From positions 1-36,732 of the forward strand of contig JAAEQG010000493.1 of NCBI GenBank assembly GCA_024231775.1: a DNA stretch of 36,732 nucleotides, given 5' to 3'. This DNA is from a bacterium. GTDB lineage: Bacteria; Planctomycetota; Phycisphaerae; UBA1845. Below the pieces are notes generated by a model. It did not search any database. It was not told the origin of the DNA and saw nothing but the letters and a program-made list of their open reading frames with translations. Positions 33,474-35,357 of the stretch are shown piece after piece. The position numbers and the translations under genes were made by a program. Within the stretch, counting starts at the first letter, position 1. Each line of letters opens with the position of its first letter.

Positions 33474-33540
33474 ATTATACGCCCCGCGTCGCAGAATCGA
33501 GCGCCGAAATGGGAACATGCGACGGAAGACCCGCCCCGAG
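33474..33540 (-). promoter_or_regulatory. Upstream block of SUMF1 copy B: TATAAT and conserved 50 bp
   Basis: A perfect -10 TATAAT lies at 33474-33479 on the minus strand, about 100 bp before ATG 33373. The 50-bp block 33491-33540 is 90% identical to that upstream of copy A; all five differences are transitions. No consensus -35 is visible, so an activator or another sigma factor may be used. Confidence 0.5.
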
Positions 33541-33566: not shown

Positions 33567-33799
33567 CCCTAACCCGGATCATTCATGAACGCAGAGAGCG
33601 CAGAGTATTATGCAGCAAGAGATTGCGACCGGATTGCGCTGGGGCACCCTCTGACAGGGTGGATGCGGCCGCACCTGAGCCCTTCTTCTCCATACTCCGT
33701 CTTCTCTGCGTCCTCAGCGTCTCTGCGTTCAATCCACTTCCTTTGAGTCCTTCACCGTGCTCGCCAACCTCCAGATGGCATGAATGATCCGGGCTAAGG
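33567..33799. mobile_element. 233-bp nested inverted-repeat element (MITE-like)
   Basis: Outer arms CCCGGATCATTCATG (33573-33587) and CATGAATGATCCGGG (33779-33793) are a perfect 15-bp inverted repeat, extending to 21 bp with two mismatches at the outer ends. Inside are opposed CGCAGAG-type arms: GAACGCAGAGAGCGCAGAG (33587-33605) against CTCTGCGTCCTCAGCGTCTCTGCGTTC (33704-33730). An inner hairpin CACCCT-CTGAC-AGGGTG is at 33645-33661. No ORF of note and no clear target duplication were seen. It may be a non-autonomous mobile repeat. Confidence 0.6.
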
Positions 33800-33801
33800 C
33801 A

Positions 33802-33829
33802 ATGGGGCGCCCATCACTGGGCACCCCAT
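33802..33829 (-). terminator. Hairpin downstream of hcp
   Basis: On the minus strand ATGGGGTGCCCA and TGGGCGCCCCAT pair over 12 bp with one G-U wobble and a GTGA (GNRA-type) tetraloop, 60 nt after the hcp stop. Only a weak U-rich tail (TTGCCTT) follows. It is probably a terminator or a stabilising 3' hairpin. Confidence 0.5.
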
Positions 33830-33889: not shown

Positions 33890-35182
33890 CTAAACGCCGA
33901 GTGCACGGTTCAGGTCTTCCTGGGCACTCTTGCCGGTCAGACGCAGATCGAACTTCTCCTGCAAGATCTTGAAGACGTTGGGCGACACGAAGCCCGGCGG
34001 GTTCGGTCCAATGGTGATCCCCTTGACCCCGAGGGCCAACAGCGTGAGCAGCACGGCAACCGCCTTCTGCTCGAACCAGGAGATTACCAGGGTCAGCGGC
34101 AGATCGTTGACCGAACAGTCGAAGGCCTTGGCCAAAGCTACCGCCACCTGGATGGCGCCGTAGGCGTCATTGCACTGGCCCATGTCCAGCAACCGCGGCA
34201 GCCCCAGCAACGTACCGTAGTCGTGATCGCGAATCCGGTACTTCCCGCAACCGAGGGTCAGAATGAACGAGTCCTTCGGGGTCGCCTGGGCGTAGTTTGA
34301 GAAGTAGTTGCGCCCCGGTTCGGCGCCGTCACATCCACCGATGAGGAAGAACCGGCTGATCTGCCCGTCCTTGACCGCCTGCACGATGGTCCCCGCCAAG
34401 TCCAGAATCGCACTGTGGTGGAATCCGATCTGCGACTCGCGGACGATGTTGTCCTTCAGGGGCGTACAGCTCTTGGCTTTGGCGATGAGCGGAGCGAAGT
34501 CGTTGGTCTTGAAGCGGTGGCCTCCCGGAACGGCGGTGACGCGCGTGGTGAACAGCCGGTCGGCGTAGCTATCCAGGGGAAGCAGGACGCAGTTGGTGGT
34601 AGCCAGCACCGGTCCGCTGAATATGGCGAACTCCTTCTTCTGTTTCTGCCAAGCCCCGCCGAAATGGCCGACCAGGTGCGGGAACTTGCCCAGCTCGGGG
34701 TACATGTGGGCGGGCATCATCTCGCCGTGGGTGTAGACGTTGATCCCGGTGCCCTCGGTCTGCTTGAGCAGATCGTAGAGATCAACCATATCGTGTCCGG
34801 TGACCAGGATACCCGGCCCCGCTACGGTACCCTCTTGTATCGTGACCGGCGACGGCTTGCCGTAGTTCTCCACGTGGCCGGCGTCGAGCATCTCCATGGC
34901 CCGCAGGTTCATCATGCCACACTCGAGCACCAGCTCCAGGTGGGTCTCGAGATCGAAGTTGACGTTGGTCACCGTGGCGAAGAGCGCTTCCTCGACGAAG
35001 GCGTCAACCTCCTCGTCCACCTTGCCCAGTCGCCGGGCGTGATGGGCGTAGGAGCACATCCCCTTGAGGCCGTAGAGCAGCAGCTCCTGCAGGGACTGAA
35101 TGTCCTCGTCCTTGCCGCAGACTCCCGGGGTCGTCTGGCATCCGGTTCCGTGGGCAGTCTGCTCGCACTGGTTACAAAACAT
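33890..35182 (-). CDS. hcp: Hybrid-cluster protein (hydroxylamine reductase/NO-reductase type), short form
   Basis: A 430-aa Hcp from ATG 35182 (MFCNQCEQTAHGTGC), preceded by GGAGA; the track's start adds six residues. The N-terminal cluster Cys are C3, C6, C15 and C22. All hybrid-cluster ligands of the family are visible: His in VTGHDM, Glu in THGEMMP, Cys in TTNCVLLP, the persulfide Cys in GGCDGAEPGR, Cys in LGCGKYR, Cys in GQCNDAYG, and Glu/Lys in WFEQKA. At 430 aa it lacks part of the N-terminal helical region of the ~550-aa enterobacterial form and resembles the shorter class III type. It should reduce hydroxylamine or NO under anoxic, nitrosative conditions in the cytoplasm. Its ferredoxin gene lies 175 bp upstream on the same strand. 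Confidence 0.95.
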   Translation of the reverse strand: MFCNQCEQTAHGTGCQTTPGVCGKDEDIQSLQELLLYGLKGMCSYAHHARRLGKVDEEVDAFVEEALFATVTNVNFDLETHLELVLECGMMNLRAMEMLDAGHVENYGKPSPVTIQEGTVAGPGILVTGHDMVDLYDLLKQTEGTGINVYTHGEMMPAHMYPELGKFPHLVGHFGGAWQKQKKEFAIFSGPVLATTNCVLLPLDSYADRLFTTRVTAVPGGHRFKTNDFAPLIAKAKSCTPLKDNIVRESQIGFHHSAILDLAGTIVQAVKDGQISRFFLIGGCDGAEPGRNYFSNYAQATPKDSFILTLGCGKYRIRDHDYGTLLGLPRLLDMGQCNDAYGAIQVAVALAKAFDCSVNDLPLTLVISWFEQKAVAVLLTLLALGVKGITIGPNPPGFVSPNVFKILQEKFDLRLTGKSAQEDLNRALGV

Positions 35183-35357
35183 CTGTGGGTCTCCTTTCAT
35201 CTGAGCGTGCGGGGCGGCGGCTTAAGACCTCCCGTACGCCGTGGACTAAGCCGATCTTCAGGGCAAACGAGTTTGTCTTGAACATCAGCATGTGGATTCT
35301 TGTTCCGCGATAACAACCCCACCGCTGAAGGGCTGGGACACGCGTAACCGCCTTCGG

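Follow-up and report, generated by a model that had tools for sequence, protein, structure and literature searches.

The window, a stretch of 36,732 nucleotides from an uncultured Phycisphaerae-like bacterium (GenBank assembly GCA_024231775.1, contig JAAEQG010000493.1), carries an element of 221 bp (33573-33793), with the hcp gene on one side and, on the other, a minus-strand ORF that starts at 33475; the element is very probably a non-autonomous MITE mobilised by a transposase of the IS1380 family. We read it so because intact IS1380 elements elsewhere in the phylum carry ends akin to its own and likewise duplicate a YTAR target. The element is short and non-coding, it has inverted ends, dispersed copies and a target-site duplication, and its ends match those of an autonomous transposon found in other genera. 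Known bacterial MITEs include RUP, NEMIS, Nezha and others (PMC3733652). The element resembles bacterial MITEs in general, which are of 70-300 bp with 15-30-bp inverted ends, no coding capacity and dispersed copies, and it differs from them in its assignment to IS1380, no IS1380 MITE of the phylum having been found in the literature searched. That literature yielded no paper dealing with both IS1380 and YTAR and none describing this MITE family; while the kind of element is known, the family of this host looks undescribed.

Anatomy of the element and its copies

Both ends are perfect 15-bp terminal inverted repeats, CCCGGATCATTCATG on the plus strand (33573-33587) and CATGAATGATCCGGG on the minus strand (33779-33793), and the pairing reaches 21 nt at 90% with the flanks counted. 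The left CGCAGAG arm, AACGCAGAGAGCGCAGAG (33588-33605, plus strand), has one unit more or fewer in other copies, and no other stretch is as conserved across the family as the right arm, TCTTCTCTGCGTCCTCAGCGTCTCTGCGTTCA (33700-33731, minus strand), with 98% mean column identity (permutation p <1/3000); the two arms pair perfectly over 12 nt (TGAACGCAGAGA/TCTCTGCGTTCA). The core between them (33606-33699), with no gene evident, varies between copies (81% mean column identity) and holds at 33645-33661 a small central hairpin of 6 bp, CACCCT/AGGGTG (33645-33650/33656-33661). A 3' spacer of about 47 bp (33732-33778) separates the right arm from the right end in the own genome; it is missing from the copies of the same-genus genome G002, where end and arm are contiguous and form a longer inverted repeat (L064, L077). 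The tetranucleotide CTAA stands on either side as the target-site duplication (33569-33572 and 33794-33797), such 4-bp duplications being significant over 80 elements. The original prediction of a nested inverted repeat with three levels was borne out at every level, while its length of 233 bp was too generous, as it took in both CTAA duplications and 2 nt beyond each. The element was also correctly said to abut the 3' hairpin of hcp, for which we noticed an inverted repeat at 33802-33829, 3' of the gene (33890-35200, minus strand; the NCBIfam match is to hydroxylamine reductase).

The own assembly (G000; 6.7 Mb) is fragmented into 1677 contigs, in which about 15 copies, some of them partial, were observed at unrelated loci, the search having returned, besides the copy in the window, 12 near-full and two partial copies of 79-92% identity. 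The end motif, with up to two mismatches, occurred 56 times in this genome and its reversed control three times. The element cannot be put down to chance because of these further copies and the excess of the end motif over the control. When the copies were aligned they had sharp common ends, at which homology stopped exactly save for a 4-bp direct repeat. One copy (C79) has 422 bp between its ends and a partly different interior. Judged from their sequences, 80-96% identical, the copies suggest that the activity of the family may be old. Thus the predicted dispersed, cargo-less and non-autonomous nature of the unit agrees with about 15 copies and with no gene being evident in 221 bp, and the opposite outcome, a single copy at a conserved locus, is refuted, since the element is multicopy and hcp orthologues elsewhere are without it. 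These orthologues, from three other genera, also lack the downstream synteny and are therefore weak evidence. No orthologous empty site was obtained, the joined flanks matching only other dispersed repeats in G001 and G002 of the same genus. No plasmid matched the element, and viral contigs contained three lone ends. A second dispersed repeat of about 190-300 bp, with the edge AGCGGTTTCAGTCNTTCCGTAGC and over 20 own-genome matches, was noticed in the flanks of three loci (L009, L002 and L005 on C657, C1571 and C709 of G000), and one MITE copy lies exactly at its edge.

Target-site duplications and insertion sites

Exact 4-bp repeats flank seven of the 14 paired own-genome copies (CTAA three times; TTAG, CTAG, CTGG and ATAG once each), and in most of the remaining pairs the 4-bp repeats differ by one transition. 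Of 80 paired elements drawn from many genomes, 36 are flanked by exact 4-bp duplications, the mean of 5000 shuffles being 10.8 and their maximum 21, and no excess was seen for lengths of 2, 3, 5 or 6. The duplications prefer YTAR. Odd cases, with TTCG/TTCG, TTAT/TTAT or CTGG/CTGG on the two sides, argue for a true duplication beyond mere target preference.

Some copies lie directly at gene ends. When ORFs of 200 codons or more were considered, 19% of the ends flanked by NTAR coincided with a stop codon, against 4% of other YTAR sites, but when compared with intergenic sites only, the excess was small and depended on the ORF cut-off. We therefore rejected targeting of stop codons, as avoidance of coding DNA largely suffices. 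YTAR includes TAA and TAG, so that the duplication rebuilds a stop codon; at two loci (L129, L135) a MITE was inserted where two convergent open frames apparently share a CTAG stop, and each frame retains its own TAG after the duplication.

Relation to IS1380 and rival explanations

In genomes of the phylum that have these ends, IS1380 transposases, recognised by NF033539, were found within ends of the same type at several loci. The element L142 of genome G414 reads CTAG|CCCGGATCCCTCACA...CGTGAGGGATCCGGG|CTAG, and at L143, in another genus, CTAA|CCCGCATTATTCATG, a left end matching at 14 of 15 bases, stands upstream of an intact transposase. A left end of this type also belongs to the IS1380 at L145. 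At L147 (CTAG|CCCGGACTATTCACG...GGTGAATTGTCCGGG|CTAG) such ends stand on both sides of an internally deleted IS1380 transposase gene, and this locus is a MITE in the making. In a search for ends in which no sequence was assumed, the IS1380 copies of six further loci (L241, L242, L243, L245, L249 and L257) proved to have CCCG(G/C)AT..CTCA ends and to be flanked by exact YTAR duplications, so that the 4-bp YTAR duplication is common to the element and to the intact IS1380 of these six loci and of L142. A second IS1380 subgroup (L252, L259, L260) has other ends (TCCTAAAACAAGC and similar) and the same duplication. The element thus shares with IS1380 insertion sequences the CCCG(G/C)AT...TCA ends and the YTAR duplication, and differs from them in having no transposase gene, in its 221 bp against about 1.7 kb, and in inner arms of other origin.

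Since no IS1380, intact or otherwise over the cut-off, was found in the fragmented own assembly, that IS1380 moved this particular family is something we infer, though strongly. The closest end match is the 14/15 of L143, from another genus; within the same genus, G001 had only IS1380 fragments and G002 had none, and no IS1380 match was obtained in the TIR-rich genomes G325, G262 and G092. Even in G414 only about 10 of 15 bases are shared between the ends of IS1380 and those of the MITEs. As we picture it, an IS1380-family DDE transposase would act in trans by binding the CCCGGATNATTCATG ends, would excise the 221-bp unit and would integrate it at a YTAR site, duplicating those four nucleotides in the process; the parent IS1380 would have been lost from the own genome or be missing from its fragmented assembly.

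Elements of the IS5 group and IS701 likewise duplicate YTAR, and a MITE mobilised by one of these or by another YTAR-duplicating DDE family would also account for the several TIR-rich genomes without IS1380 and for a lone own-genome end (L043) that adjoins an IS5-like transposase N-terminal fragment, recognised by eye only. We consider this origin unlikely, because several genomes with such TIRs have IS1380 elements whose ends match, the IS1380 ends determined de novo share the CCCG.AT...TCA pattern along with the YTAR duplication, and no IS5 element with such ends was seen, IS5 elements not having been searched for systematically. A REP/RAYT-type palindrome, or a regulatory hairpin such as a terminator or structured RNA, rather than a DDE-type element, would suit the strong folding of the unit (better than 200 of 200 shuffles, z -3.6), the copies directly at gene ends and the related elements that are bare palindromes of 36-44 bp (L104, L112); the 4-bp target duplications and the defined ends speak so plainly against it that we give it almost no credence. 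A structured RNA in particular was rejected, there being no Rfam family above threshold and almost no covariation, with compensatory changes at only 3 of 53 pairs. In G022, G002 and G031, GxxExxY genes lie between inverted arms of CGCAGAG or CACAGAG placed tens of bases away, which would suit another reading, the entire unit as a GxxExxY inverted-repeat cassette that has no gene. We find this very improbable: the cassettes are without CCCGGAT ends, across the phylum such ends occur with no CGCAGAG arms, and lone CGCAGAG words occur without the ends. The unit itself has no GxxExxY gene between its arms and does have CCCGGAT ends, and we rejected its membership of that class. Mobilisation by IS1380 is hence the reading that we retain.

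CGCAGAG arms and GxxExxY genes

Many intergenic sites in the own genome and in its sisters have the CGCAGAG word but not the ends, and CGCAGAGACGCAGAG has about 200 matches in G002. A scan of 84,980 species, with one genome per species, which may leave out own-genome records, returned CGCAGAG joined to a CCCGGAT end in only two Phycisphaerae MAGs. The arms are a separate dispersed word, which as far as found has joined the element in no other genus. Between species, as judged from one G001 copy, the arms are 91-96% identical, against 85-92% for the terminal repeats and 64-67% for core and spacer; this may mean that the arms are of importance to the element, or that they are kept uniform by the word's numerous other copies.

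In relatives, inverted CGCAGAG arms bracket GxxExxY (TIGR04256) genes (L189, L194, L196; CACAGAG at L190). These cassettes have the same word and the same inverted layout as the element, and differ from it in having a gene between the arms and no CCCGGAT ends. The suggestion that the repeats are of the kind that flank GxxExxY genes accordingly stands for the arms and fails for the CCCGGATCATTCATG ends, which are IS1380-type with YTAR duplications; no GxxExxY gene was found inside CCCGGATCATTCATG-type ends. In the same bacterial family, GxxExxY genes have inverted words, CGCAGAG, CACAGAG or CGCAGATTT, within tens of bases on both sides (additionally L188, L191 and L198), as if gene and word travel together. 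The intergenic DNA of the genus is also rich in other short-period words, AAACGTCG, AATGGAGAATGG, AAGCACAGAAGGCACAAA and ATCCGCGTTCATCCGCGG, often beside CGCAGAG (L019, L021, L022, L024-L030, L067-L081). We put forward only tentatively that CGCAGAG is a module in its own right, mobile or under selection and linked to GxxExxY genes, and that IS1380-type ends of this genus acquired it and constraint has since retained it.

Spread across the phylum and significance

Of 392 genomes sampled from the phylum, 55 (about one in seven) contained the end TARCCCGGATNATTCATG with at most one mismatch, and reversed-pattern controls were near zero. Ends numbered 386 in G414, 99 in G190 and 67 in G117, and elsewhere in the phylum they surround unrelated short interiors, typically of 36-230 bp. 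With 386 ends in 5.9 Mb and a single intact IS1380 found, G414 (L142, L114-L141) displays an extreme MITE expansion. At two loci (L104, 1480-1515; L112, 1472-1515) palindromes of 36-44 bp consist of little beyond two ends and retain exact 4-bp duplications.

An anonymous repeat has thereby become a classified element. Many MITE families have arisen independently from IS1380-type ends across a phylum that is apparently Planctomycetota, one genome of which has several hundred such ends, and a transposable element whose ends have incorporated CGCAGAG words offers a system in which to ask what role this widespread word has around GxxExxY genes.
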